Shown one piece after another: positions 10,887-32,294 of a stretch of DNA of 64,000 bases (the first letter of the stretch is position 1; each line of letters starts with the position of its first letter). Origin of the DNA: Campylobacteraceae bacterium (GTDB lineage Bacteria > Campylobacterota > Campylobacteria > Campylobacterales > Campylobacteraceae); the NCBI GenBank assembly GCA_012519705.1, contig JAAYPR010000022.1, forward strand, positions 1 through 64,000. The letters are read 5' to 3'. Below the pieces are notes generated by a model that saw nothing but the letters and a program-made list of their open reading frames with translations, made no database searches and was not told the origin of the DNA. A program made the position numbers and the translations under genes.

Positions 10887-12710
10887 ATGGAAAAACACGA
10901 ATTTCAAACAGAAGTAAGTGATTTACTAAATTTAATGATTCACTCACTTTACTCAAACAAAGAGATATTTTTAAGAGAGCTTATCTCAAACGCAAGCGAT
11001 GCACTGGATAAATTAAACTATTTAACCTTAACAGATGAAAACTACAAAACTCTTAGCTACACTCCAAAAATAGAAATAAAACTAGATAAAGAAAACAAAA
11101 CCTTAACCATAAGCGACACAGGAATTGGGATGAGCAAAGATGAGCTTGTCTCAAATTTAGGAACGATTGCAAGAAGCGGGACAAAAGGGTTTTTATCAAA
11201 TTTAAGCGGTGATGCTAAAAAAGACTCAAATTTAATCGGACAGTTTGGAGTTGGGTTTTACTCAGCTTTTATGGTGGCAAATAAAATAGAAGTTTTAAGT
11301 AAAAAAGCTTTAAGCGATGAGGCAAATGTTTGGAGTAGTGACGCTACAAATTTCAGCGTCTCAAGTGCTAAAAAAGAAAACCATGGAACTAGCATAACGC
11401 TTTACTTAAACGATGATGAGTATCTAAACGAATATAGAGTTGAAAGTATCATCAAAAAATACTCAAACCACATCCCATATCCTATTTTTATGGATAAGGA
11501 AGAGTATGTCCCAGCTGAGAAAGAAGGCGAAGAAGGCAAAACTGAGATTAAAAACACCCAGATAAATAGAGCAAGTGCTCTTTGGAGAATGCAAAAGTCA
11601 AGTTTAAAACCAAATGACTACAACGAGTTCTATAAACAAATCAGCCACGACAGCAACGACCCGCTTCTTTATATCCACACAAAAGCAGAAGGGAAAATCG
11701 AGTATAGCACCCTATTTTACATCCCTAGCGTTGAGCCGTTTGATTTATACAGGGTTGATTATCAAAGCGGAGTAAAGCTTTACGTAAAAAGAGTGTTTAT
11801 CACTGATGATGAGAAAGAGCTACTTCCTTCGTATCTACGCTTTGTAAGGGGGATAATCGACGTTGAAGACTTACCACTTAACGTAAGCCGTGAAATCTTG
11901 CAAGAAAATGCAATTATGAGAAGCGTTAAAGATGCAAGCGTTAAAAAGATTTTAAACGAGCTTGAAAACCTGCTTAAAAACGATAGAGAAAAATACATAA
12001 AATTTTACATACTTTTTGGAAACGTACTCAAAGAAGGGCTTTATGGCTTTACTCCATATAAGGAGCAAATTTCAAACTTACTACTTTTCAAGACAAATTT
12101 AAGAGATGAGTATATCACTCTAAAAGAGTATAAAGAGAAAATGACTGGCGATGAAATTTACTACATCACAGGAAAAAGTGCGAACAAAAACTCCCCTATC
12201 TTAGAGAGCTTTAACAAAAAAGAGATAGAAGTTCTGCTTTGTGACGAAGAAATCGACACTATCGTTATGCCGATGGTTCATGAATATGATGGCACAAAAC
12301 TAACTCTTGCTTCACAGGTTGAAGTTGAAGATGAAGGGCTTGATAAAGAGAAATATCTAGAACTTACTGCAAAAATCAAAGAAGCCTTAAGTGGCAAAGT
12401 AAAAGATGTTAGAGTTACATCTAGGCTTGATAAATCAGCATCTTGTTTAGTCTATGACAAAAACGACCCTGACTTTGCAACTCAGCAAATTCTAAAACAA
12501 ATGGGACAAGATAACCTGCCTGAAATTCTACCTATTTTAGAGATAAATCCAAATCATGAGATTATTAAAAAACTTGATGAGAATAAAATCATGATACCTG
12601 AAATTTCAACCCTACTTTTAGGCATGGCACAACTTGATGAGGGAATGGAGATAAAAGATAGTAAAGAGCTAACAGATGCTATTTCATCTATCATAAAACA
12701 AGCACTTTAA
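10887..12710 (+). CDS. htpG: Hsp90-family chaperone HtpG
   Basis: A 607-residue cytosolic Hsp90 homologue. The GHKL ATP-binding domain is intact: [13 protein letters not shown] (catalytic Glu and Mg-binding Asn), [15 protein letters not shown] and GQFGVGFYS all appear in the first ~130 residues. The middle domain includes the conserved SREILQEN segment, and the C-terminal dimerisation domain is complete. AAAGGA lies upstream of ATG 10887. Length agrees with other Campylobacter HtpG proteins. It stands alone, with a promoter of its own and a hairpin downstream at 12769-12798. Confidence 0.97.
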
Positions 12711-12768
12711 TTTAACGCATTGATTTTAAAATAAATAAAATTTAACTCCAAACTTCTTACAAACCCCC

Positions 12769-12798
12769 TAATTAGAGTGGCTTCAACCACTCTAATTA
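12769..12798 (+). terminator. Strong hairpin downstream of htpG
   Basis: A perfect 12-bp inverted repeat (TAATTAGAGTGG / CCACTCTAATTA) closes a CTTCAA loop about 60 bases after the htpG stop. No T-run follows on the plus strand, so it is a terminator of a weaker kind or an mRNA end-protecting hairpin. Confidence 0.5.
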
Positions 12799-12881
12799 TA
12801 AAAAATATATTAAAAATGAAAATTAGATATATAAACTTAAGTGTAATTTATATTTTTATTTTAGATTAATTAAAAATGTGT

Positions 12882-12887
12882 TATAAT
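12882..12887 (+). promoter_or_regulatory. aspA -10 box
   Basis: TATAAT preceded by TGTGT lies 30 bases before the aspA start, downstream of a long AT-rich stretch as is usual for Campylobacter promoters, in which a -35 box is poorly conserved. Confidence 0.5.
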
Positions 12888-12917
12888 GCGGTTGAATTTC
12901 AAAACAAAGGAGAATAG

Positions 12918-14327
12918 ATGGCTACAAGAAAAGAACACGACTTTATAGGTGAGTTAGAGATCTCTGATGATGTGTATTATGGTATACAGACATTTAGAGC
13001 GGTTGACAACTTCCAAATGACAGGGAGAAGGATTAAAGACTATCCTTTCTTCGTTAAAGCTTTTGCTCAGATTAAAAAAGCAGCTGCTTTAGCTAACAAA
13101 GAAGTTGGCGTTTTAGACGCTGAGAAAGCTGACGCTATCGCTAAAGCTTGCGATAAAATTATAGCTGGTGAGTATCTAGATCAATTCGTTGTAGATATGA
13201 TCCAAGGTGGTGCTGGAACTTCGACAAATATGAACGCAAACGAAGTTATTACAAACGTTGCGCTTGAAATTCTAGGACACAAAAAAGGTGAATACCAATA
13301 TCTTCACGCAAACGACCACACAAACTTAGGTCAAAGCACAAACGACGCATATCCAAGCTCTATCAAAGTTGCAGTTCATGCAAAACTAGGCGATTTACTT
13401 AAAGCAATGGAGCTTTTAGTAACTGAGCTAGAGAAAAAAGGCGTAGAGTTTAAAGATATGATTAAAATGGGTAGAACAGAGTTAGAAGACGCTGTTCCAA
13501 CGACTTTAGGAAATACATTTAACGCATTTGCAAGCTATGTTAAAGCTGATATTGAAAATGTAAAAGTTGCAAGAGAGCTTATGACAAATTTAAACATGGG
13601 TGCAACGGCGATTGGAACAGGTATCAACTGCCACCCAGCTTATAAAGAGGCGGTTCATAGAAAACTAAGTGAAATCACAGGTGCAAATTTCAAGCCAGCT
13701 GCTGACTTCATCGCTGCTACTCAAGACACAGGTGACTTCGTTCAAGTAAGCGGCACTTTAAAAACTGCTGCTACAAGACTATCAAAAATGGCAAGTGACT
13801 TAAGACTTATGAACTCAGGACCAAGATGTGGTCTAGGTGAAATTGATTTACCAAAAATGCAACCAGGTAGCTCTATTATGCCAGGAAAAGTAAACCCAGT
13901 TATAGCTGAAGTTGTAGGCGAGGCTTGCTACGAAGTTATAGGAAATGACGTTACTATCATGCTTTGCTCACAAAGAGGAGAGTTTGAGCTAAACGCGTTT
14001 GAGCCGGGCATTGCTTACGCACTATTTAACTCATTAATAGTTCTAGAAAATGCTTATATAACTTTAGCAAACAAAGCTATCAAAGATACTAAAGCTAGAC
14101 CTGAGGCGTGCTTACAATCAGTTCTTAACTCAGTAGGAATTGTAACAGCATTCAACCCAGTAATCGGCTATGAGAAATCATCACAAGTTGCTAAAGAAGC
14201 ACTTGAAACTGGTAAATCAGTTGGCGATATCGCGATAGAAAAAGGGTTCTTAACAAAAGAACAGGTTGATAAACTTCTAGATCCAAAAAGCATGTTAGAT
14301 CCGCATATGGAACATACAGGCAAATAA
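12918..14327 (+). CDS. aspA: Aspartate ammonia-lyase AspA
   Basis: A 469-residue member of the fumarase/aspartase superfamily that converts L-aspartate to fumarate and ammonia. The signature [12 protein letters not shown] and the motifs GGAGTSTNMNANEV and NDAYPSS identify aspartase. It differs clearly from the window's own fumarase, which has [13 protein letters not shown] and [20 protein letters not shown] precedes the start. It lies upstream of a DcuA-type transporter, an arrangement known from C. jejuni (aspA-dcuA), where aspartate is taken up in exchange for fumarate or succinate and feeds respiration. A terminator lies between the two genes. Confidence 0.97.
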   Translation: MATRKEHDFIGELEISDDVYYGIQTFRAVDNFQMTGRRIKDYPFFVKAFAQIKKAAALANKEVGVLDAEKADAIAKACDKIIAGEYLDQFVVDMIQGGAGTSTNMNANEVITNVALEILGHKKGEYQYLHANDHTNLGQSTNDAYPSSIKVAVHAKLGDLLKAMELLVTELEKKGVEFKDMIKMGRTELEDAVPTTLGNTFNAFASYVKADIENVKVARELMTNLNMGATAIGTGINCHPAYKEAVHRKLSEITGANFKPAADFIAATQDTGDFVQVSGTLKTAATRLSKMASDLRLMNSGPRCGLGEIDLPKMQPGSSIMPGKVNPVIAEVVGEACYEVIGNDVTIMLCSQRGEFELNAFEPGIAYALFNSLIVLENAYITLANKAIKDTKARPEACLQSVLNSVGIVTAFNPVIGYEKSSQVAKEALETGKSVGDIAIEKGFLTKEQVDKLLDPKSMLDPHMEHTGK

Positions 14328-15816: not shown

Positions 15817-16713
15817 TTACTCGACTTCTATAAATCCACCTAAATTTATATCTTTATAACTTAGCGGACAGCCGTATCCGAGAATTCTCTCTCTATAGGA
15901 AATTTGAGCTGGTGAGCCCTCTTCCCAAATTTCATCAAGATAGTTTAGAAATTTCTTTCTATCATATCTAAGCATGACAAGTTCTACATAAGCATCTTTT
16001 ATCTTTGTGCTATAAAGGGCGTTTTTATGCGGCTCTTTGCCAATCCTTGTCACAAGCCCTGTTATAAACTCGCTGAAATTTGGCATCCCAGTTGAACCGT
16101 TGTTTATAAAAGCGTTATTTCCTAGTTTCATAACAGCAGCTTTACAAGTATGAGTTGTGGCGATGATGTCAAATTTAGTTTTAAAAAACCACTCTTTTAT
16201 CTCATCAATTCTTTCATCTTTAGCTAAAACTTCATGGTCAAATCCCCAGCCATTTAGCATTTTCTCATCGCCGTGAGTTATAGCTACTTTAAGCCCCAAA
16301 ACTTCAGCAAAAAGAGCTGTGCCTCTATCTTTAAAAATAGAAAAATCAGCATCCATACTCTTTAATCTTTGGTGGATTAACTCTGCATTTTTAACGACAA
16401 TTTCCTCTTCCCACTCTGGATAGTTACATCCACAGCCAAATTTATCACTCTCTCTTGCAAGTTCTAGCTCAACGTTTCCATTTAGTTTTATACTATTTTT
16501 AGTTAGTTCTTCAACCTGGTTAAAATAGGCTGGATTTGCATCAAACCAATGCAAATCCCCATTATAAACTATTGTGCTATCCCCTGCTAGTTCATTTAGT
16601 TTTTCTATAGCAAAGATATTTCCATACACTCCGCCAGCTATCCAAATTTCATCACATTTGATTTCCGCAGAGTCTGAAAACTCTACTTTATAACTAATGT
16701 CGCAACTTTGCAA
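15817..16713 (-). CDS. Calcineurin-like metallophosphoesterase-like protein, degenerate motifs
   Basis: A 298-residue protein that recalls calcineurin-like phosphoesterases: IAGGVYGNIFAIEKL aligns with the usual DIHGN block, YNGDLHWFD with the GD block, AITHGDE and ATTHTCKAAV with the two histidine blocks, and NNGSTGMPNF with the end of the fold. The first block has lost both metal ligands (D-x-H is G-x-Y here). Activity is therefore uncertain, or it uses a different metal site. The start is TTG at 16713 with AGGAG six bases upstream. It overlaps the end of the symporter gene by 20 bases, so the two form one transcription unit. Confidence 0.6.
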   Translation of the reverse strand: MQSCDISYKVEFSDSAEIKCDEIWIAGGVYGNIFAIEKLNELAGDSTIVYNGDLHWFDANPAYFNQVEELTKNSIKLNGNVELELARESDKFGCGCNYPEWEEEIVVKNAELIHQRLKSMDADFSIFKDRGTALFAEVLGLKVAITHGDEKMLNGWGFDHEVLAKDERIDEIKEWFFKTKFDIIATTHTCKAAVMKLGNNAFINNGSTGMPNFSEFITGLVTRIGKEPHKNALYSTKIKDAYVELVMLRYDRKKFLNYLDEIWEEGSPAQISYRERILGYGCPLSYKDINLGGFIEVE

Positions 16714-18067
16714 TATATGCTCCTAAAAAATAGAGTGCAAAACATCCAAGAAGCCCGTAAACGTTTATCCCAAGAAGTCCTGCATAAGCTCCATCTCCGA
16801 TATATAAAGCCTTTGGAAGAATGCCTAAAACCTCCACAAACCCACAAAACAGCCCAAAGAAAAAGCTTAAATAAAAGCTAAGTTTGTTTATCGTAACAAC
16901 TCCGTGAAGCATAAATATAGGTGCCATTCCTATAACCATAGTTCCGCTTATCGTTGTAGCTTTTAAGATGTCAGTTCCTAAAAACATCGGGAAGTTTCCA
17001 ACGATTGATAAAACTACCATAGAAATCATACCGATGATTACAGACTTTGAAAGCCAGTTTGGATTGATAAGTTTAACCCAGTCGTGAGCGATTAGCTTTG
17101 AAAGACTTGCAAAAGTGCTATCTAGAGTTGAGCCAGCAGCACTTATCATAACTATATTCATTAAAAACAGAGCCCCAAGCCCAAAGCTTAGTGCCACACT
17201 TGCTGGGATGTTTGAGCCAGTTATGCCCTCAAAAGAAGCATAAACTCCGATAAAACTAAAGATAAAGATGGCTAAAAACCCAGTAATCCCAGCTATGATG
17301 AAGCTTATTAACATTCTTTTTGGTGAGCATAAAAAGCCCCTATCTGTTAAAACTGGGTCGTGAAATGGATAGCTAAAAATTTGAAGAAGTGCTACTAAAA
17401 GCAAATCAACCCCGCCAACTAAACTCCACTCTCCTGAACTTACTATTTCACCAACTGAGTATTTTGGCAACACAAAGGTTAAAACAAACCCAACACCTAT
17501 GACAAAAATCACAGCTTGAACGATGTCTGTAACTATACTTCCTCTAAGCCCTCCTTTTAGTGAGTAAATAAGAGTTATAAAAGTAAAAAGAAGTGCCGCT
17601 ATGATAAAGCTTGTGCTTCCACTCTCGCCATAATACCCACCAACAACAGAAGTATTTGACCAAACTTCGTTAAATAGCCTAATTAAAATCGCGATACTAA
17701 AACAAAAACTTGCAAGTCTGCCGTAGTTTGAGTTTAGAAATTCAACTAAACCAGTTGCGTTGTATTTAGTTCTAAGTCTGTAAAGGATGATGCCAGCAAC
17801 AGGGATACAAAGCCAGTAAGCCGCATAAGCAACGCCCCCAACTATGCCGTATTTCGCCCCTAAATTTGCAGCGTTTGTAACAGACTTGGCAAATATCCAG
17901 CTTATAAAAATACTAGTTGAAAGAAGCCAAACATTTACATCCCTGCCCTTATCATCGCTTCCTCTAAAAAAGCCATCAAAGCTTTTAACTTTAGGGCTTA
18001 AAAACCACAGGATTGCCCCGTAAACAAACAAAAAACCCCAAAAGGCTATGCTAAAAAGTGTTGTCAT
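16694..18067 (-). CDS. Sodium:solute symporter (SSS) family protein
   Basis: A 457-residue membrane protein with about thirteen hydrophobic segments, including the family-typical GGLRGSIVTDIVQ stretch after the fifth or sixth helix. SSS transporters couple substrate uptake to the sodium gradient; substrates range from proline to pantothenate, sugars and nucleosides, and nothing here decides which. The phosphoesterase-like gene downstream overlaps by 20 bases, hinting at a shared, perhaps nucleotide-derived or phosphorylated, substrate; this is only a guess. The gene is transcribed away from the rhodanese cluster and shares its upstream region. Confidence 0.82.
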   Translation of the reverse strand: MTTLFSIAFWGFLFVYGAILWFLSPKVKSFDGFFRGSDDKGRDVNVWLLSTSIFISWIFAKSVTNAANLGAKYGIVGGVAYAAYWLCIPVAGIILYRLRTKYNATGLVEFLNSNYGRLASFCFSIAILIRLFNEVWSNTSVVGGYYGESGSTSFIIAALLFTFITLIYSLKGGLRGSIVTDIVQAVIFVIGVGFVLTFVLPKYSVGEIVSSGEWSLVGGVDLLLVALLQIFSYPFHDPVLTDRGFLCSPKRMLISFIIAGITGFLAIFIFSFIGVYASFEGITGSNIPASVALSFGLGALFLMNIVMISAAGSTLDSTFASLSKLIAHDWVKLINPNWLSKSVIIGMISMVVLSIVGNFPMFLGTDILKATTISGTMVIGMAPIFMLHGVVTINKLSFYLSFFFGLFCGFVEVLGILPKALYIGDGAYAGLLGINVYGLLGCFALYFLGAYIAKLRH

Positions 18068-18401: not shown

Positions 18402-19094
18402 ATGAGAATTAAATATTTAGTTTTAGCAGCGGTGCTTGCATTTTTTGTAGGCTGTGGTGATTCAGGAGTTGTAGCTGGCGAAAAAATGGCTGGTGAAAAA
18501 CTAGCAGCTATCCAAGCTGACAACAAAGAGAAAGAAAACTATTTAGTAATCGACGTTAGAAGCAAAGAAGAGTATGACCAAGGTCACTTAAAGCATGCTA
18601 TTAACATACCTTTTGAAGTTTTCTATGACAGAATCGATGAGATAAAAGGCTATGAAAATAAAAATATAGTATTCTACTGCACAAGCGGTAAGAAAAGTAA
18701 CAAACTAGCAGAAGAGCTAAAAGCAAAAGGCTTTACAAAAACTGCGGGTGCTGACAGCTTAAAAGAGTATAACTACGAACTATTTAAATTTGGAAGCATA
18801 AATGCAGCTGAGTATAACAAAATGGATAAGAGTAATCTTTTAATCATCGACGTTAGAGAAGCAAAAGATTATGAAGCTGGACATATAGAAGGTGCTATTA
18901 GCATTCCAGATGGACAGCCTTTAGAAAACTATAAAGATATCTTAGAAGCAAACAAAGGTAAAACTGTAGCTATTTACTGCTATACTGGAAACAGAAGTGC
19001 AAAACTAGCTGAAAAGCTACTGGATAAAGGCTTTGCAGGTGTTTATAATATGCTTGATGGAACAAAAGAATACGATTATAATCTAGTAAAATAA
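18402..19094 (+). CDS. Tandem-rhodanese lipoprotein
   Basis: A 230-residue predicted lipoprotein: the signal peptide ends at a lipobox-like FVGC with Cys18. Two rhodanese domains follow, with active-site loops FYCTSGKKS (Cys93) and IYCYTGNRS (Cys193), exactly 100 residues apart, suggesting internal duplication with both catalytic cysteines kept. Rhodaneses carry persulfide sulfur or bind oxyanions such as arsenate. It should sit on the outer face of the inner membrane or on the outer membrane. AGGAG lies before ATG 18402. Its stop overlaps the next start (TAATG), so it is the first gene of the ArsS-like cluster. Confidence 0.88.
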   Translation: MRIKYLVLAAVLAFFVGCGDSGVVAGEKMAGEKLAAIQADNKEKENYLVIDVRSKEEYDQGHLKHAINIPFEVFYDRIDEIKGYENKNIVFYCTSGKKSNKLAEELKAKGFTKTAGADSLKEYNYELFKFGSINAAEYNKMDKSNLLIIDVREAKDYEAGHIEGAISIPDGQPLENYKDILEANKGKTVAIYCYTGNRSAKLAEKLLDKGFAGVYNMLDGTKEYDYNLVK

Positions 19095-20575
19095 TGAAAA
19101 AAAACTGCTTAATTTTTTTTACAAAATCCCCAGAGTTAGGTAGATGCAAAACAAGGCTTAATGACTTTTTAAGCCTTGAGGAAGCAAGAGACTTGCAAGT
19201 TCATCTACTAAATAAAAACTTTGAGATAGTTAAGAAATTTAACTATCTCATCTTCTACGATGGGGATTTGGAAATTTTAAAAAACTCACTTTCCAAAGAT
19301 GAAAAAAACGAAATTCCAACCTATCTTTTTAAAAAACAAAGCGGCGAAAATATCGGCGAAAAAATGCAAAACGCCTTCAAAGAAGTCTTTGCATTAGGTT
19401 ATAAAAAAGCTGTGCTTATAGGAAGTGATTTGGATGATTTAAAATCATCTGATATCAAAACCGCTTTTAAAAACTTGGATAAATTTGACTCTGTTTTTGC
19501 CCCAAGTAGCGATGGTGGCTACTCACTAATCGGGCTTAAGTTTATGATAGATGATATTTTTGACATCAAATTTAGCACTAAAAATGTGATGAAAAACACT
19601 ATCAAAGCCCTTAAAAACCATAGTTACTTTTTATGTAGAGAGATAAAGGACATTGATACCAAATTTGATATCATCGCAAAATTTACAAAAAGTAGTGAAA
19701 TTTCACATCTTGCAAGTGGGGAGTATAACTCAAATTTCATCTTTAAAGATGGCTCTAAGAAAAGGATTTTTAGAGTAAATCACGCATCTCAAATGGAGTT
19801 AGATGAACAAATTTCTTATGAATACAAAGCTCTTAAGATTTTAGAGAGTTCTGGCGTTACACCAAAGGTTTATAAGCTTTTTGAAAAAAGCCCATATCTG
19901 CCAAACGGTGCTTTAACGATGGAGTTTTTAAAAGGTAAAAGCCTAGACTACAAAAAGGACATGAAAAAAGCGGCTTTTATCCTAGCTAAAATTCACACTC
20001 ATAAAATCCCTAAAAAACATAGCTTAATCGTCGCACAAAAGCCATTTTTAGAAATGTATAAAGAGTGTAAAAAGATGAGTGAAATTTACCTAAAAAACGA
20101 GTTAAGACAAGAAAATGTTGCTAAGTTTTTAGAGTTTGCTTTTAAAACTTGCGAGAGTTTAGGGCTAGAGAGTGAAATCTCAAACAAAGCCATCGTAAAT
20201 ACAGAACTAAATAGTTCAAATTTCATCATCGGTAAAAAACACTCTTATCTCATAGACTGGGAAAAACCGCTCATTAGCGATAAAGAGCAGGATTTAGGGC
20301 ATTTCTTAGCCCCAACTACAACTTTTTTTAAAACAGATGTTATTTTGGAGTTTGATGAGATTGAGAAGTTTTTAGATGAGTATGAAAAGTTAAGCAAGTG
20401 TGAGAGAAATTTGGTTTATAAATATATCAAATTTAACTGTTTAAGGGGGGTTAGTTGGTGTGCTATGGCAAGTGTCTCTCATCAAAACACAAACGCACCG
20501 ACCAATCCAAAAATCGCACTCTACTTAGAAAATGAGTTCTTAGATAGAGTAAAAAAATTTATGGAGAAAAAATGA
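19094..20575 (+). CDS. TIGR04282-like glycosyltransferase fused to an APH-like kinase domain
   Basis: A 493-residue two-domain protein. Residues 1 to about 195 match the DUF2064/TIGR04282 arsenosugar-biosynthesis glycosyltransferase type: FFTKSPELGRCKTRL at the start, ENIGEKMQNAF, LIGSDLDDL and SSDGGYSLIGL. Residues about 205-490 resemble the aminoglycoside/choline phosphotransferase fold, with a hinge-like LTMEFLKGKSLD and the IDWEKP metal-binding block. The catalytic loop reads NTELNSSN (about 372-379) where the canonical kinases have H-x-D-x4-N, so His and Asp are replaced by Asn and Glu. The start overlaps the preceding stop by one base and the end overlaps the next gene by four. It probably acts on a sugar-type intermediate; antibiotic resistance is unlikely. 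Confidence 0.78.
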   Translation: MKKNCLIFFTKSPELGRCKTRLNDFLSLEEARDLQVHLLNKNFEIVKKFNYLIFYDGDLEILKNSLSKDEKNEIPTYLFKKQSGENIGEKMQNAFKEVFALGYKKAVLIGSDLDDLKSSDIKTAFKNLDKFDSVFAPSSDGGYSLIGLKFMIDDIFDIKFSTKNVMKNTIKALKNHSYFLCREIKDIDTKFDIIAKFTKSSEISHLASGEYNSNFIFKDGSKKRIFRVNHASQMELDEQISYEYKALKILESSGVTPKVYKLFEKSPYLPNGALTMEFLKGKSLDYKKDMKKAAFILAKIHTHKIPKKHSLIVAQKPFLEMYKECKKMSEIYLKNELRQENVAKFLEFAFKTCESLGLESEISNKAIVNTELNSSNFIIGKKHSYLIDWEKPLISDKEQDLGHFLAPTTTFFKTDVILEFDEIEKFLDEYEKLSKCERNLVYKYIKFNCLRGVSWCAMASVSHQNTNAPTNPKIALYLENEFLDRVKKFMEKK

Positions 20576-21261
20576 GAAGTAAGCTAATTTTACTAGCTAT
20601 TTTTGTAGCTTTTATAGCGGTTTATTTTACCTATGAACCACTAAATTTGTGGATAAATAACTCGCTTTATATCATCAAGGAGGCTTCTGTTGACCTTGAT
20701 TTAGGAAAACTTGCTGAGTATCTTAGAGGCTTTGGGATGAAAGCTTGGATAGTGAGCTTTTGTCTGATGGTTTTAAGCTGTATCTTAGCACCGATTCCTG
20801 CTTTTATCATCACACTTACAAATGCTGCTGTTTTTGGCTTTTTGGGTGGGGCGTTTTTGTCATGGAGTAGTGCTATGGCGGGAGCGGTAATGTGCTTTTA
20901 TATAGCTAAAATTTTAGGTCGTGATGTGGTTGAGAAAATCGTTAGCAAAAACGCACTTAAAAAAAGCGATGAATATTTTGAGAGATATGGAGCTCATACG
21001 ATTTTAGTTTGTAGGTTGCTACCTTTTATCAGCTTTGATTTGGTAAGTTACGCTGCTGGGCTAACGGGCATGAGATTTTGGAAGTTTTTCATAGCTACTG
21101 GTATCGGACAGCTTCCAGCAACGCTTGTATATAGCTACTTTGGTAAGAACTTAGACGGCTCTGGAAAAATAGTATTTATAACTTTAATGCTTATATTTGC
21201 TTTAAGCATAGTGATTTATATTTTGAAAAATATCTATGAAAACAAAAGAAAAGCTGCTTAA
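20572..21261 (+). CDS. TVP38/TMEM64 family membrane protein (first of two)
   Basis: A 229-residue membrane protein of the SNARE-associated/VTT (TVP38, DedA-related) superfamily. Hydrophobic helices are visible near residues 5-22, 55-75, 80-110, 155-190 and 200-222. The VTT core includes a proline-rich re-entrant segment (APIPAFIITLTNAAVFGF) and a VCRLLPFISFDLVSYAAGL segment. Such proteins are implicated in lipid or polyprenyl carrier movement across membranes. ATGA overlap with the gene before and a 26-base overlap with the gene after show tight translational coupling within the ArsS-like cluster. Confidence 0.85.
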   Translation: MRSKLILLAIFVAFIAVYFTYEPLNLWINNSLYIIKEASVDLDLGKLAEYLRGFGMKAWIVSFCLMVLSCILAPIPAFIITLTNAAVFGFLGGAFLSWSSAMAGAVMCFYIAKILGRDVVEKIVSKNALKKSDEYFERYGAHTILVCRLLPFISFDLVSYAAGLTGMRFWKFFIATGIGQLPATLVYSYFGKNLDGSGKIVFITLMLIFALSIVIYILKNIYENKRKAA

Positions 21262-21832
21262 AACCCTAGTGGTTTTAAGCATTATAATATGTTCTATTTA
21301 CATTTACTACCATGTAAATACAATTAAAGATTTTATCTTAGAAAATAGAGATTTAAGCGTTTTACTCTACACTCTTGCATGGATAGTTTTGCCGATTTTT
21401 CTCTTTCCTGTGCCTATTTTAGCTTTAGTTGGTGGAGTGCTTTTTGGGCTGTTTTGGGGAAGTGTGATAACAACTTTAGCCGCTATGATAAACATAATAC
21501 TTATGTATTATATCGGCAGGTTTTTAGGCGTTAAAAACTTTACAATGAATGTCAAAGATAGCTTTATGAGCGTTTTGATTTTACGCTTTATCCCGCTTGT
21601 GCCTTATAATCTGCTAAATTACGCTTGTGGGTTTTTGGGCATCGGGCTTAAAAACTACATTTTAGCCTCTTTTGTAGGCATTATCCCTGGGACTGTGATT
21701 TTGATAAATTTAGGTGAAAATGTGCTAAATTTTGGCTCAAAAGAGTTTTGGCTTTCGCTTTTATATCTATTTATTTTAACAATTATCTCTTTATGGTTAA
21801 GACATGTCTATAATAATCATCACCCTAAATGA
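21236..21832 (+). CDS. TVP38/TMEM64 family membrane protein (second of two)
   Basis: A 198-residue paralogue of the preceding gene, with the same core: FPVPILALVGGVLFGLFWG and LILRFIPLVPYNLLNYACGFLG (shown in part). The N terminus carries one extra hydrophobic helix. It starts inside the end of the first TVP38 gene and overlaps the glycosyltransferase gene by 29 bases. Two adjacent, divergent copies suggest a heteromeric pair or different carriers. Its company, two glycosyltransferases and a radical SAM enzyme, hints that it handles a lipid-linked or membrane-bound product. Confidence 0.83.
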   Translation: MKTKEKLLKTLVVLSIIICSIYIYYHVNTIKDFILENRDLSVLLYTLAWIVLPIFLFPVPILALVGGVLFGLFWGSVITTLAAMINIILMYYIGRFLGVKNFTMNVKDSFMSVLILRFIPLVPYNLLNYACGFLGIGLKNYILASFVGIIPGTVILINLGENVLNFGSKEFWLSLLYLFILTIISLWLRHVYNNHHPK

Positions 21833-22475
21833 CCCAAATTTAGCTAAACTTTTAACTCAAATTTTTGCTTTAAACTTTGATGGCGAATTTGAGGTGATTA
21901 TAGTAAATGCTGGAGAGCCTTTAAGCCTAGAAAACAAAAAGATAAAGGTTATAGAAAACGCACCTAGAAACAGAGGTTTGCAACTAAACTTAGGTGCGAA
22001 TTTAGCTAAATTTGAAACTCTTTGGTTTTTGCATTCTGATAGCAGTATAGATAAAAACTCGTTAAATTTGATAAGCTCTGCTCTAAGAAGCTCAGAAATT
22101 GGCTGTTTTAGGGTGAAATTTGACAAAGGTGGTTTTTTTATGAAATTTATAGAACTTGGTTCAAATTTAAGAGTAATATTTAGAAATATTGCTTTTGGAG
22201 ATCAAGGAATTTTCATAAAAAAATCTCTTTTTGAAAGCCTTGGCAAATTTAGAGAAATTCCTATCATGGAGGATTATGACTTTAGTATGAAAGTTAAAGA
22301 GAGTGGATATAAATTTAAACTCGCAAATGGCTATATAACCACATCGGCAAGGCGGTTTAAAAACCCTTTAAAAACTCTTTTTAAAATGCAGGTTTTGCAA
22401 TATAAATTTAGAAAAGAGCGAAAAAAAGCAAATTTAAAGATGGAGAAATTTCAAAATGAGTATCAAAAGATTTAA
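21804..22475 (+). CDS. TIGR04283-like family 2 glycosyltransferase
   Basis: A 223-residue GT-A fold glycosyltransferase. It begins MSIIIITLND and shows RNRGLQLNLGA, LWFLHSDS, AFGDQGIFI, EIPIMEDYDFSMKVKE and TTSARRF, which together fit the TIGR04283 family named for arsenosugar biosynthesis. The HSD block supplies the metal-binding acidic residue. No membrane helix is evident, so it probably works at the cytoplasmic face. It overlaps the genes on both sides (29 and 20 bases). Family names rest on genomic association, so the real acceptor is open. Confidence 0.88.
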   Translation: MSIIIITLNDPNLAKLLTQIFALNFDGEFEVIIVNAGEPLSLENKKIKVIENAPRNRGLQLNLGANLAKFETLWFLHSDSSIDKNSLNLISSALRSSEIGCFRVKFDKGGFFMKFIELGSNLRVIFRNIAFGDQGIFIKKSLFESLGKFREIPIMEDYDFSMKVKESGYKFKLANGYITTSARRFKNPLKTLFKMQVLQYKFRKERKKANLKMEKFQNEYQKI

Positions 22476-23427
22476 GCTCAAAGAGACAAAAAACGACCCC
22501 CAGACCTGTATAGAGTGTGGGCTTTGCACGAAACACTGCGACTTTTTAACAAAGTATGATATCCATCTAAAAGATTTTAGTCACAAACCAGAGATTGCAA
22601 ATGAGTGCTGTTTATGCGAGCAGTGCTACAATGTCTGCCCTAAAAATATCAGCGGAATGGAGATCGCCCTAGCCCACCGTCAAGACGCGAACTTTAAAAA
22701 CCCATTTGTTAAAACTCACAAAAGCCCTTATCTTTTTAGAAATAACTCTGATAAAACTTGCGATGATCTGATCTTTTTTGGCTGTAATTTTGTAGGAGTT
22801 TATCCAAAAACAACTAAGCATATAGTAGAAAATCTTTGCGGTAAAAACGGCGATGAGATAACGGACTTTAGCATAGACTGCTGTGGAAAACCACTTCTTA
22901 TGGCTGGATACACAAAAGAACAGAGCCTTAAAAGCACAAAAGAGCTAGTTAAGAAAAAAAAGGTTAAAAGGATAGTAACCGCCTGTCCTAACTGCTACCA
23001 TTTCTTAAAAGATAGCCTAGGCGTAGAGGTCGTAAGCATCTACACAAAACTAAAAGAACTTGGGCTTATGAAGATGGTAGAAGATGAAGCTCATCTTTTC
23101 TACCCATGTAGCGAGAGAAACAGTAGAGCTATGTTTGATGAGTTTAAGGAGTTTTTGCCAAACAAACAAGATAGTTTTTTAGATATAAACTGCTGTGGGG
23201 CTGGTGGTGGCGACAAAGAGATAGCTAAAAACTACCCAGAAAAACTAAAAGCTAAAAATAAACCAAATTTATATGTTTATTGTGCAACTTGTGCTTTGGT
23301 TTATACAAAAGCTGGAGTTAGCGATGTGAAGCACTTAACGACTCTGTTTTTAGGTGTGGACGAAAAACCAAATTTAAGCTTTTCAAAAAATGTTTTAAAA
23401 ATGAAATGGTATAAGAAAAATAGATAA
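22456..23427 (+). CDS. Fe-S protein with two ferredoxin-type clusters and CCG domains
   Basis: A 323-residue (Fe-S)-binding oxidoreductase of the GlpC/HdrD type. Two ferredoxin-type motifs lie near the N terminus (CIECGLCTKHC at residues 18-28 and CCLCEQCYNVCP soon after). Two cysteine-rich CCG-type regions follow, DCCGKPLLMAG near residue 144 and NCCGAGGGDKE near 257, each with further cysteines. Such proteins move electrons to or from membrane carriers or thiol/disulfide substrates. It could supply electrons to the radical SAM enzyme encoded 27 bases downstream or reduce an arsenical or selenium species. It starts inside the preceding gene. Confidence 0.87.
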   Translation: MSIKRFKLKETKNDPQTCIECGLCTKHCDFLTKYDIHLKDFSHKPEIANECCLCEQCYNVCPKNISGMEIALAHRQDANFKNPFVKTHKSPYLFRNNSDKTCDDLIFFGCNFVGVYPKTTKHIVENLCGKNGDEITDFSIDCCGKPLLMAGYTKEQSLKSTKELVKKKKVKRIVTACPNCYHFLKDSLGVEVVSIYTKLKELGLMKMVEDEAHLFYPCSERNSRAMFDEFKEFLPNKQDSFLDINCCGAGGGDKEIAKNYPEKLKAKNKPNLYVYCATCALVYTKAGVSDVKHLTTLFLGVDEKPNLSFSKNVLKMKWYKKNR

Positions 23428-23454
23428 ATAAAAAATAGACAAGCAAGGAAAATA

Positions 23455-24345
23455 ATGGAGATAACTTTTAATAAACCCAAAATCATGCAACTAAACATCA
23501 CTAGAAAGTGCAATATGACCTGCTACCACTGCCACGTGGAAGCAAATCCATCAAGAACTGAAGATATAACAAAAGAAGTGGTTGATAAAGCTTACGCCGT
23601 GTTTAAAAAGTTTGGTTTTGAAAGCCTTGATATAACGGGTGGTGCACCTGAGATGAGTGAGCATTTAGAGTATATAATCAAGCTTTTTAAAAACGCGACC
23701 GATGATATCAGCGTTAGGTCAAATTTGACGATTTTACTTGAAGATGGATACTCAAAATTTATAGAAATTTATAAAAATTACGGCGTAACAGTCATCGCTT
23801 CTGTGCCATTTTATGAAGAGAAATTTAACGATGCTATGCGTGGAAAAGGAAGTTTTGAAAAGCAAATCAAAGCTCTAAATTTACTAAACGAGACCGGAAT
23901 TGAGAAAATAAATCTCATCTATAACCCAAACGGAGCATATCTGCCGCCAAATCAAGATGAACTTGAAAAAGTCTATAAAGAAGAGCTTGTAAAATATAGC
24001 GTTAAATTTGATAAGCTTTACTGCATCGCAAATGTGCCAATAGGCAGATTTAGAAAAATGCTAGAACGCTTTGATGAGTATGATGAGTATATAGAGCTTT
24101 TAAAAGAGAACCTTAAAGAGGAAAACTTAAAAGATGTGATGTGCACAACTCTTTTAAATGTTTCGCATGATGGGAAGCTTTATGACTGTGACTTTAACGC
24201 TGCTATTGGTCTCTCATCAAGTATCGGCTCACTTGATGAGGCTCTAAATTTAGGGAGTTTAGATAGAGTTATCAAAACAGACACTCACTGCTTGGCTTGT
24301 GTAAGCGGTGAAGGCTCAGGGTGTTTTGGAAGTATTAAAAAGTGA
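23455..24345 (+). CDS. arsS: ArsS-like radical SAM/Cys-rich protein
   Basis: A 296-residue radical SAM enzyme. The cluster motif CNMTCYHC (Cys19, 23, 26) is followed by HVEANPSRTE, close to the HVDAGPxRxE block of the ArsS/TIGR04167 family, and DITGGAPEM is the SAM-binding GGAPE equivalent. The C terminus has the extra cysteine block with HCLACVSGEGSGCFG, matching the CxxC...GxGSxC pattern of the family. ArsS joins a 5'-deoxyadenosyl group to dimethylarsenite on the way to arsenosugars. No in-frame TGA suggests selenocysteine. No ArsM methyltransferase is nearby, so the true substrate is uncertain. The start has AAGGAAAATA upstream. Confidence 0.85.
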   Translation: MEITFNKPKIMQLNITRKCNMTCYHCHVEANPSRTEDITKEVVDKAYAVFKKFGFESLDITGGAPEMSEHLEYIIKLFKNATDDISVRSNLTILLEDGYSKFIEIYKNYGVTVIASVPFYEEKFNDAMRGKGSFEKQIKALNLLNETGIEKINLIYNPNGAYLPPNQDELEKVYKEELVKYSVKFDKLYCIANVPIGRFRKMLERFDEYDEYIELLKENLKEENLKDVMCTTLLNVSHDGKLYDCDFNAAIGLSSSIGSLDEALNLGSLDRVIKTDTHCLACVSGEGSGCFGSIKK

Positions 24346-24358
24346 AAATCTACCCAGC

Positions 24359-24399
24359 AGTCATTGCGAGCCAGACGTTGTCCGGCGTGGCAATCTAGA
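24359..24399 (+). repeat. REP-like palindromic repeat, copy 3
   Basis: The same outer blocks as at 10468 (GTCATTGCGAG and CGTGGCAATC) enclose CCAGACGTTGTCCGG. In this centre CCAGAC pairs with GTCCGG apart from one mismatch. It sits between the ArsS-like gene and the C_GCAxxG gene, so it may separate the last gene from the operon. Confidence 0.75.
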
Positions 24400-24458
24400 C
24401 TTTAAAGATTTAGGCTATATTTTTGTAAAAAGTTAAAATTATATTAAAAAGGTAAAAA

Positions 24459-24857
24459 ATGGATATAAAAGAGTATGTAAAAAACGAGTTTAAAACTAAA
24501 AATTGTGCTCAGATAGTTTTAGGTTATTTTTATGATAGTGATGAGTTAAATGCCCTAACTGCTGGGTTTGGTGGTGGGTTTGGTACGGCTAAACTTTGTG
24601 GGAGTTATGCTGGAGGCGTAGCAGTTTTAGGACTTAAATTTAGAGATAAAGCAACTCTTGATAACAAGATGAAAGAGTTTGAAAACGAGTTTTTAAAGGT
24701 TTATAATAGCCTAAATTGTAGTGAAATTTTAGGAGCTGATTATAGAGAAAAAGAAGGACTTAAAAAAATAGAAGATGAAAATCTTTTTGGAACAGTGTGT
24801 GTTGATTTAACGGCGAATTGTATAGAAATTTTAGAGAGTTTGATAGCTAGGGGCTAA
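24459..24857 (+). CDS. C_GCAxxG_C_C family redox protein
   Basis: A 132-residue protein that fits the C_GCAxxG_C_C family: NCAQIVLGYF near the start, the glycine-rich TAGFGGGFG, then LCGSYAGGVAVLGL in place of the usual CGAxxG, and later single cysteines (LNCSE, TVCVD, ANCIE). The family is thought to be redox-active and often accompanies Fe-S and electron-transfer proteins, and is found near arsenosugar-type clusters. It is 113 bases behind the ArsS-like gene with a REP-like repeat between, so it may be transcribed less than the rest. Its stop codon lies in the convergent terminator shared with fumC. Confidence 0.85.
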   Translation: MDIKEYVKNEFKTKNCAQIVLGYFYDSDELNALTAGFGGGFGTAKLCGSYAGGVAVLGLKFRDKATLDNKMKEFENEFLKVYNSLNCSEILGADYREKEGLKKIEDENLFGTVCVDLTANCIEILESLIARG

Positions 24858-26514: not shown

Positions 26515-29277
26515 TTAAAACCTATACTCAGCTTTAACACCGCCACTAATTCCCTCTTTATCTCCTAGATATCCTTGAAGATTAAGTCCAAGGTTTAAGT
26601 TTTCTATTGCTAAGAAGTTAGCACCTAGTTCTAAAACTGCACTATCGCCTTTTAGTTCAGGAGCTTCTATCTCTCTACCTCTATGGTCATATCCTTTAGC
26701 TTTACCATCAAACTCTCTTTCATAAGCAGCACCAAAGTATAGTGTAGAGATATCACTTATACTGTAGTTATATCTAGCACCTATCTTAGTTCTTATAGAG
26801 TCTATACTATCAAAGCTAAACTTTTGATTGGCTACAACTACATCTGTGCTTTCTAAGTTAGTATAAAGTAGTTTAGCATAAACATCAAGGTTTGAGTTGT
26901 TGTTTATATCTATGATATTACCTACTCCTATATGAGCACCATAGTATCTTCTATCTAAGTCAAACTCTACTGGTATACCAAAGTCACCACTTTTATACTC
27001 TGTATCTGTTTTACCTACTCTTAAACTTCCTTCTATATAGAAATTATTAGCTAGATTACTATGTAGCATAATACCTAGACCATAGTACTCTGTATCTCCA
27101 GCTCCTCTTACTACACTACTATTAGCAAAGCCATTGAAGCTATCATACTCACCCTTACCTGCTTCTATAAATGCAGAGTAAGTTGTATCATTAACTGATG
27201 ATGCTACACCAGTAAGAATGCTTATACCTTTAACATCTACATATGAGCCAGTTTTGGTTTTAACATCACTTCCAGCTACAGCTAAGAATGCTCCTAGGTT
27301 ATCACTCTCATCTATAGTGTGTATCATAGTACCAGCATTATCAGCTATTAAGTCAGCTCCACTATTTACAAAAGATACAGATGCAAGTCCTGCTTCTAGG
27401 AAGGATTTAACTTTAGGGTTTTGCTTAGAGGCTGGTGTTTGTGGTTTTTCTGGTGTTGGAGGTGTTGGTAGAGTATCAGGTGATAAAACCTCTGCATATA
27501 GATAGTTAGCCTCATCATTTTTTAACTCAAATGTATAGATATCACCTACACCAGCCATAACATCCATATGGTTAGTCATATCTGTTGGATGGATGACATT
27601 AGCATTTTCTGAGTGGATTAAATTTACTCTATCTCCTGTTAGTAGTTCAGGTATATCACCTTCTAATACTCCTACTCCCACTTTAGACTTAGATAAGTCA
27701 GTATCTTCTGTATCAGTTAGAGTAAGCATAGTATCGTTTGCTTTAGTATTAGCCGGGAGATAGAAATTTATAAACTCAAAGTTAGCTATGTTTTTAGCAC
27801 TTAGTCCATTTGAGTAGAAATTTAGAGTGTTGCCTTTGGCTAGTCTAGTAAAGTCTCTATCTGAGTAATCATCATAGTTTGCACCACCATAGATGATAGC
27901 ATTAGTAAAAGATGGAGTTCCTTTTATAGTTACTATGTTATCTGTAGCTAACCCCGATATATTTCTTATTTGACCTCCAACTATAGAATCTCCTGATATA
28001 CTCCCACCAGAAATGATAATGCTATTAGAAATAGCTGACTCGTTGTTGCTATATCCTCCACGCACATTGGCATCTATATTTCCACCTAATATTTCTACTG
28101 TATTTTTAACCGCTTTAGCATCTTTAGATCTACCACCATAAATATTCTTTTTTATATTTCCGTCTAAGATTTTAATGCTATTTAAAGTAGCTAGACCTTT
28201 AGTGCTACGCCCACCATAGATATAGTTTTCTAGAACTCCACCCGATATAAAAACTTTGTTGTCAGAAACTAACCCATTCTCACTAAACCCACCATAAACA
28301 TAGCCATCCACTTGTCCTGCTGAAATTTCTACACTATTTAAAGTGACCGAACCACTATCACTACGCCCACCGTATATAAAGCCACCCACCTTTTCAGCAG
28401 ATATTTTTACAGTATTGTGCACTACCTTGCCGTCTGTATCGCCTTTTGACCTACCACCATAAACGCTACCTTTTATTATTCCATTTAAAATTTCAACCTC
28501 ATTATTACTGGCTAAATTATTTTCACTATAGCCACCATAAACCCAACCATCAATAGTCCCACTTGAAATTTTAACTATATTTTTATCTGCTAAGCCGTTT
28601 ATACTTTTACCACCGAAAACATCGCCTTGAATTTCAGCAATATCCACTTCAACTTTATTATTTTTGCTAGTCTCAGACCCGCCAGCATAACCGCCATAAA
28701 CTGAACCTTCTATCACAGGGCTTGAACTTTGAGATATACCAGTTATTTCAACTTCATTTTCAGAAACTTCATTTGCTCCGCTATATCCACCATAAACGCT
28801 TCCTTTGATTGTTGTGCGTCTTGTATCGCTGTCAGAATCTATGATAACTTTATTTTTTGTTACTTTGCCCATATAAGAATAACTACCGAAAACAGAGCCA
28901 CTATCCGCATCTGAGCCACCACCTATAACTGTGCCATCTTTTACAGTAACAGTATTATTTAAAAGTTCTGTATTTATATCGTTATGGATAGCTCCATAAA
29001 TAGCTCCTTTAATACGGTTTGTACTATCTTGTATAATAAAGTTATTATTAGAAATATCTATTGTTTGAAGTGTTGGAAAAAAGCTTTTATCTGGCGTACC
29101 ATAAATATAACCTAACCTACTATCGGGGCTACTATCGTTAAATGTATAATCTTCAGCACTAAGAGGTAGTATAAATGCACTAGCTATAATGCTAAGACTT
29201 AAAGCTTTTTTTAAAGCAACTTTTGATAAACTTCTCGTCCCTATATTAAGGGAGGGGGTAGTAGTTTGCAGTTTCAT
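26515..29277 (-). CDS. Autotransporter (type V secretion) with glycine-rich beta-helix repeats
   Basis: A 920-residue secreted outer-membrane protein. It opens with a long signal peptide (about 42 residues, ending LSAEDY). The passenger from about residue 80 to 440 has some twelve repeats of roughly 24-30 residues built round [IV]-x-G-x-[VI]-[YF]-G-G-x-S and N-x-V-x-I, as expected for a right-handed beta-helix adhesin. A proline-rich linker (PTPPTPEKPQTP) comes before the C-terminal ~280-residue autotransporter beta-barrel, which ends in aromatic KAEYRF. An exact AGGAGG ribosome site precedes ATG 29277. A complete IS element lies 60 bases upstream, within the promoter. Confidence 0.9.
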   Translation of the reverse strand: MKLQTTTPSLNIGTRSLSKVALKKALSLSIIASAFILPLSAEDYTFNDSSPDSRLGYIYGTPDKSFFPTLQTIDISNNNFIIQDSTNRIKGAIYGAIHNDINTELLNNTVTVKDGTVIGGGSDADSGSVFGSYSYMGKVTKNKVIIDSDSDTRRTTIKGSVYGGYSGANEVSENEVEITGISQSSSPVIEGSVYGGYAGGSETSKNNKVEVDIAEIQGDVFGGKSINGLADKNIVKISSGTIDGWVYGGYSENNLASNNEVEILNGIIKGSVYGGRSKGDTDGKVVHNTVKISAEKVGGFIYGGRSDSGSVTLNSVEISAGQVDGYVYGGFSENGLVSDNKVFISGGVLENYIYGGRSTKGLATLNSIKILDGNIKKNIYGGRSKDAKAVKNTVEILGGNIDANVRGGYSNNESAISNSIIISGGSISGDSIVGGQIRNISGLATDNIVTIKGTPSFTNAIIYGGANYDDYSDRDFTRLAKGNTLNFYSNGLSAKNIANFEFINFYLPANTKANDTMLTLTDTEDTDLSKSKVGVGVLEGDIPELLTGDRVNLIHSENANVIHPTDMTNHMDVMAGVGDIYTFELKNDEANYLYAEVLSPDTLPTPPTPEKPQTPASKQNPKVKSFLEAGLASVSFVNSGADLIADNAGTMIHTIDESDNLGAFLAVAGSDVKTKTGSYVDVKGISILTGVASSVNDTTYSAFIEAGKGEYDSFNGFANSSVVRGAGDTEYYGLGIMLHSNLANNFYIEGSLRVGKTDTEYKSGDFGIPVEFDLDRRYYGAHIGVGNIIDINNNSNLDVYAKLLYTNLESTDVVVANQKFSFDSIDSIRTKIGARYNYSISDISTLYFGAAYEREFDGKAKGYDHRGREIEAPELKGDSAVLELGANFLAIENLNLGLNLQGYLGDKEGISGGVKAEYRF

Positions 29278-32208: not shown

Positions 32209-32282
32209 ATTTAACTCCTTAAAAAAAGAAAAGATTATATCTTGTGTGGCTAAATTTAAGCCTAAAATTCACAAAAGTTTTA

Positions 32283-32288
32283 TACAAT
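32283..32288 (+). promoter_or_regulatory. Possible -10 box giving a near-leaderless pbpC mRNA
   Basis: TACAAT preceded by TTTTA ends six bases before the pbpC ATG. A transcription start seven bases on would coincide with the A of ATG at 32295. No ribosome-binding site is visible before this ATG. Confidence 0.35.
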
Positions 32289-32294
32289 TTTAAA

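Follow-up and report, generated by a model that had tools for sequence, protein, structure and literature searches.

Arsenosugar loci and the ArsS locus of a Campylobacteraceae genome

Described arsenosugar loci combine the methyltransferase ArsM (NF038099/NF008823) with the radical S-adenosylmethionine (SAM) protein ArsS and with transferases of the TIGR04282 and TIGR04283 types, and in Pseudanabaena (L045) ArsM, ArsS, and TVP38 genes are linked. Annotation routinely labels genomes that carry ArsS as arsenosugar producers. The adenosylation of dimethylarsenite was established for other ArsS members in work from 2021, as cited in PMC12159101. We analyzed an ArsS locus in a 64,000-nucleotide stretch of a Campylobacteraceae genome (assembly GCA_012519705.1, contig JAAYPR010000022.1, positions 1 to 64,000; referred to here as the window). 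This locus shares with the ArsM-containing loci an ArsS with all of its cysteines, a TIGR04282 transferase, a TIGR04283-type transferase scoring just below the family cutoff, and VTT/TVP38 membrane proteins. However, it has no ArsM, either in the locus or elsewhere in the genome, and instead carries genes for a sodium/solute symporter family (SSF) importer and a degenerate calcineurin-like metallophosphoesterase family protein (MPE). It further adds genes for a kinase-transferase fusion, a CCG-domain protein, a rhodanese, and a C_GCAxxG protein. The window genome encodes a methylthioadenosine (MTA)/S-adenosylhomocysteine nucleosidase (MTAN) and no MTA phosphorylase, whereas some arsenosugar loci contain MTA phosphorylase instead.

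The ArsS loci of anaerobic Firmicutes (Lachnospiraceae L055, Muricomes L072, and Pelotomaculum L064) resemble the window locus in their VTT, TIGR04282, CCG and/or C_GCAxxG, and YdjY-domain lipoprotein genes. They differ in having VTT-TIGR04282 and TIGR04282-TIGR04283 fusions and an AhpD-like TIGR04169 protein and in lacking SSF and MPE. Unlike the window genome, those of L055 and L064 also contain ArsM-like genes away from the locus. In L055 a YdjY-domain lipoprotein is fused to an ABC solute-binding protein and followed by two permease genes (11475-13490, plus strand), and a GCxxCLxSC motif is conserved in the YdjY-like partners of ArsS.

A first-pass annotation, made from the window sequence alone, had described eight consecutive plus-strand genes at 18402-24857, the first six overlapping, and the open reading frame (ORF) list agrees with it exactly (overlaps of 1, 4, 26, 29, and 20 bases, followed by gaps of 27 and 113). 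Its assignment of the radical SAM protein to the ArsS family was also borne out. The protein (23455..24345, plus strand; DUF3641) scores 325 bits against TIGR04167, above the cutoff of 300, has the radical SAM motif CNMTCYHC, and retains all eight family cysteines (C19, C23, C26, C230, C245, C279, C282, and C290). However, the extent given for the cluster was too short. The functional unit reaches past 18402, down to 15817, and takes in two adjacent genes that had been overlooked, the SSF importer (16694..18067, minus strand; TIGR00813 49 bits, PF00474 33 bits) and MPE (15817..16713, minus strand), which has four invariant cysteines and adjoins ArsS in 47 of the 162 ArsS loci compared. The SSF and MPE genes overlap by 20 bases, and the pair adjoins the core and is divergent from it.

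The eight-gene core was found in five of the 60 relatives searched (G008, G009, G010, G011, and G015) and in four additional genomes, which represent a different genus of this family (G250, G334, G448, and G466). Given this recurrence, the arrangement is far beyond chance. SSF and MPE accompany the core in four of the five relatives, often together with genes for a small membrane protein and a lipoprotein with a YdjY domain, and in the four genomes of the other genus SSF, mostly also MPE, is part of the same gene run as the core. The association extends to betaproteobacteria, in which MPE and/or SSF adjoin ArsS (L078, L088, and L096) and MPE is located behind ArsS on plasmids of Burkholderia glumae. 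Among 72,556 plasmid records, 46 match MPE, every one from B. glumae, and in the sole one examined (L134) MPE stands directly after ArsS.

Absence of ArsM

The first-pass annotation had reported no ArsM in the window, and a search extended this to the whole genome: in the window genome (99.2% complete) the best match to NF008823 reached 53 bits against a cutoff of 263. This match was rejected as arsM, being nearest to the DVU_1556 methyltransferases. The five other ArsS-bearing relatives, which also carry the cluster, had no ArsM match at an E value of ≤1e-10. Relatives with stronger ArsM-like genes (G021, G030, G051, and G055) have no ArsS above the cutoff. An arsM gene located elsewhere and always linked with the cluster in relatives, which would have made this an ordinary arsenosugar locus, was looked for and not found. 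Among 49 sampled ArsS genomes, some of them incomplete, ArsM was missing or weak (<95 bits) in 21. ArsS by itself therefore does not show that a genome makes arsenosugars from inorganic arsenic, and the label "arsenosugar biosynthesis" is used too broadly.

Alternation of ArsM and MPE across ArsS loci

We labeled 162 ArsS loci by the genes within 9 kb; the genomes were drawn as samples rather than exhaustively, metagenome-assembled genomes among them are partial, and the labels are affected by short contigs. ArsM was present in 41 loci and MPE in 47, and no locus had both. The type of transporter followed the same division. Pit-family phosphate/arsenate transporters were confined to ArsM loci, 15 of which had one, while SSF was found in 33 of the 47 MPE loci, in none of the 41 ArsM loci, and in two loci with neither gene. 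PhnD together with PhnE was present in six MPE loci and no ArsM locus, and altogether 39 of the 47 MPE loci had an SSF or PhnD/PhnE-type transporter.

The same exclusion was seen within single lineages. Of the 74 genomes from one betaproteobacterial family, 38 had MPE, and all of these had ArsS; the 15 genomes without ArsS had no MPE. Linked ArsM occurred in none of the 38 MPE-positive genomes, compared to 15 of the 21 ArsS-positive genomes without MPE (Fisher P value of 1.4e-9, kinship ignored). In the betaproteobacterial gene order, the two alternatives occupy the same slot, as either arsS-[Pit]-arsM-VTT/FAD-DUF547-T2-T1 or arsS-[SSF or PhnDE]-MPE-VTT/FAD-DUF547-T2-T1. Among 399 genomes of the order to which the window belongs, five had MPE, all with ArsS, and six others (L153 to L158) encoded ArsS and ArsM fused as one protein of 663 to 705 residues, none with MPE. 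The alternation of ArsM with a transporter and MPE is well supported. In the open-access literature searched, one paper named ArsS together with arsenosugar and radical SAM, and no description of the alternation was found.

Most of the fusion genes (e.g., L154, 8000-9991, minus strand) have TIGR04282/TIGR04283-type transferase and TVP38/oxidoreductase genes nearby. In two further loci, L159 (5439-7619, plus strand) and L160 (5686-8652, minus strand), ORFs of 726 to 988 amino acids combine an ArsM-like methyltransferase with a radical SAM domain weakly related to ArsS and adjoin VTT, CCG, and rhodanese-like genes, possibly representing another organoarsenic pathway.

ArsS across the switch

In a maximum likelihood tree of ArsS (quick search, SH-aLRT), the ArsM/MPE label switches at least 13 times, with many branches weakly supported. 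An independent-pairs test on this tree was not significant, there being too few informative pairs. Identity between ArsS proteins of different classes reaches 89%, and both classes keep all of the conserved cysteines. The other core residues checked are likewise kept, except that six ArsM loci have Ser in place of Asn-90 and a few isolated deviations occur. The high identity across the switch and the retention of the cysteines indicate that the chemistry of ArsS is probably unchanged, and the comparison favors the same chemistry on a substrate from a different source.

Some TIGR04167 proteins are selenoproteins (PMC13188914). The ArsS frame of L055 (9935-10888, plus strand) stops at the position of a C-terminal Cys (GAGSS-stop) and is a probable selenoprotein, with SelA, a SelB-like GTPase, YedE, and YedF encoded alongside.

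Fold and motifs of MPE

MPE scored over no Pfam gathering threshold, and sequence searches of the PDB with it were empty. Its AlphaFold2 (AF2) model is confident (predicted local distance difference test [pLDDT], 91; predicted TM score, 0.91), and Foldseek identified the fold as that of a calcineurin-like phosphoesterase, nearest to the Ap4A hydrolase SapH (3qfn; E value of 8e-10, probability of 1.00, and TM score of ~0.6 to 0.7). The overall fold is common to MPE, SapH, and the YfcE/Vps29-type phosphoesterases. However, compared to these enzymes, with which it has ~15% identity, MPE has its metal and catalytic residues replaced and has gained four invariant cysteines. The usual motifs DxH, GNHE, and GHTH were absent from the 13 MPE sequences aligned; motif I reads GGxYGN, motif III reads GNVE, and motif V reads [ST]H[TS]C, with motif equivalence judged by eye. 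C4, C94, C96, and C190 are invariant across the 13 sequences. We infer that MPE carries a soft-metal or metalloid site in place of the two-metal phosphatase site.

Proposed pathway and alternative explanations

We propose, with about even confidence, that the locus encodes a variant of the arsenosugar-type pathway in which uptake and MPE, not ArsM, supply the ArsS substrate. This substrate would most likely be a methylated arsenical that is already formed, for example dimethylarsinate. From the observed gene content, its conservation, the absence of ArsM, and the exclusion between ArsM and MPE, we infer the substrate, the MPE reaction, and every later step as follows. The SSF symporter would import an organo-oxyanion, with dimethylarsinate or a closely related methylated arsenical as the most likely candidate, and the cysteine-bearing MPE would ready it for ArsS. 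ArsS would then attach a 5'-deoxyadenosyl group to a nucleophile with trivalent arsenic, which would come from outside rather than being made by ArsM from arsenite, and the adenine would be removed by MTAN. The kinase-transferase fusion would possibly phosphorylate the pentose and activate it with a nucleotide, and the family 2 glycosyltransferase would attach the pentose to an acceptor at the membrane, where the VTT proteins are located. The first-pass annotation had offered either methylated arsenicals from outside or a different product. The transporter/MPE module standing in the place of ArsM in other lineages lends support to the first of these.

Several observations weigh against this proposal. 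The usual ligands of PhnD-family proteins are phosphite or phosphonates, and the substrates of SSF transporters are diverse. The reduction or methylation of arsenic is not an obvious reaction for the MPE fold, and the window genome lacks a gene for the organoarsenical efflux protein ArsP. Five MPE-positive genomes of the betaproteobacterial family hold an unlinked ArsM-like gene. In addition, ArsM and MPE are both absent from the vicinity of 74 of the 162 ArsS loci (some of these lie on short contigs, and some have ArsM elsewhere), and one relative with the eight-gene core (G015) has neither gene in its genome, so that MPE is not strictly needed.

More tentatively, SSF or PhnDE together with MPE may constitute an unrecognized second front end for ArsS, in which the cysteine-armed MPE performs a new reaction on an imported organo-oxyanion and supplies ArsS with a nucleophile that is either a methylarsenical obtained by scavenging or free of arsenic, leading to an undescribed class of 5'-deoxyadenosyl-derived sugars.

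It is rather unlikely, though it is the strongest of the competing explanations, that the loci without ArsM make a product free of methylarsenic, with ArsS coupling the 5'-deoxyadenosyl radical to some other nucleophile taken up through SSF or PhnDE, such as a selenium, sulfur, or phosphorus(III) species. Neither SSF nor PhnD-type transporters are carriers of arsenate, the PhnD relatives match a selenate-binding model (below its cutoff), the Lachnospiraceae locus L055 adjoins SelA, YedE, and YedF, and both the lack of ArsP in the window genome and the frequency with which ArsM is missing or weak in ArsS genomes are in keeping with such a product. However, the near identity of some ArsS proteins across the ArsM/MPE switches comes with no clear class-specific residues, and the L055 genome holds an ArsM-like gene. 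The selenium genes of L055 may serve only selenocysteine insertion, as its ArsS frame stops where other members have Cys. Selenium as the reason for the cluster, an idea drawn from the genes beside L055, was rejected, since selenocysteine in the L055 ArsS explains that neighborhood at least as well.

We give still less weight to an ordinary arsenosugar locus that receives dimethylarsenic passively from neighboring organisms, with SSF and MPE as accessories of the later sugar or lipid steps and the exclusion of ArsM incidental. The remaining core genes are indeed common to the ArsM and MPE classes, and many ArsS loci lack both ArsM and MPE. However, the zero co-occurrence in 162 loci, the repeated switches, the shared slot, and the transporter type that tracks the class argue for replacement and not for an accessory function. 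Least probable is a true phosphodiesterase activity of MPE that releases the substrate from an ester taken up by the cell (e.g., a glycerophospho-arsenical), the pathway then recycling arsenosugars or arsenolipids rather than building on dimethylarsinate; the kinship of the fold to SapH and the suitability of SSF and PhnDE for organic anions agree with it, but the Asp and His of motif I and the catalytic His of motif III are replaced and Cys stands in place of the second His of GHTH in each of the 13 sequences, making ordinary two-metal phosphodiester hydrolysis unlikely.

Other genes of the core and window

The first core gene encodes a rhodanese lipoprotein (18402..19094, plus strand), kept in relatives, in which PF00581 matches two stretches and each domain has its Cys loop (FYCTSGKKS and IYCYTGNRS). 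Intact catalytic motifs had been claimed for this protein and for the radical SAM protein, and both are present. Its score against NF045521 (rhoda_near_glyco) was 109 bits, under the cutoff of 145.

The second gene (19094..20575, plus strand) was identified by family searches as a fusion of a TIGR04282 nucleotidyl/glycosyl-transferase-like domain (about residues 1 to 195; 153 bits, cutoff of 134) and an APH-fold kinase-like domain (about residues 200 to 490; PF01636, 39 bits, cutoff of 23.2). The transferase is related to 3cgx, a "putative nucleotide-diphospho-sugar transferase" (E value of 1e-34). Active APH kinases carry H-x-D where the fusion has NTELNSSN, and N-T-E-L-N stands there in six of six homologues. 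The activity of the kinase domain is therefore uncertain, and an active kinase is not supported. The lipid-linked or exported product suggested in the first-pass annotation likewise gained no support. The AF2 model is poor in this half, with a pLDDT of ~30 at residues 361 to 416. The domain, with its NxE motif kept in all six homologues, might conceivably restore the 1-phosphate after the nucleosidase and so replace MTA phosphorylase. The kinase fusion occurs in 10 ArsS loci, none with MTA phosphorylase, which is found in seven other loci.

Two VTT/TVP38 membrane proteins follow on the plus strand (20572..21261, PF09335 107 bits; 21236..21832, PF09335 64 bits). Models of the undecaprenyl phosphate transporter UptA match them weakly, which would suit a membrane-linked product. 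The next genes, also on the plus strand, encode a TIGR04283-type family 2 glycosyltransferase (21804..22475; 171 bits, just under the cutoff of 182; PF00535) and an Fe-S dicluster/CCG-domain protein (22456..23427; PF02754 38 bits, NF045663 77 bits), which is also present in L055 and L072. A C_GCAxxG_C_C redox-type protein (24459..24857, plus strand; PF09719 69 bits; TIGR01909 43.6 bits, under the cutoff of 47.4) follows ArsS.

The flanks of the locus are ordinary (a Dcu C4-dicarboxylate carrier and fumarase). Rfam and tRNA scans gave no matches, and a promoter scan gave no more than shuffled sequence. Elsewhere in the window, a 920-amino-acid, autotransporter-like protein (26515-29277, minus strand) contains numerous degenerate repeats (YGG...N.V.I.SG) and has a region resembling a beta-barrel at its C terminus, and a bacterial alpha-2-macroglobulin (34445-39424, plus strand) lies beside a penicillin-binding transglycosylase (32244-34448, plus strand) as a PbpC-type pair.

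Implications

ArsS genomes can now be split into those supplied by ArsM, those supplied by a transporter and MPE, and the rest, and the MPE family, formerly "hypothetical," is named as a partner of ArsS. The alternation also allows a direct genetic test, which would ask whether methylated arsenic is scavenged by bacteria into larger organoarsenicals. Should the substrate prove to be something other than arsenic, a large share of the annotations as "arsenosugar biosynthesis" would be wrong.

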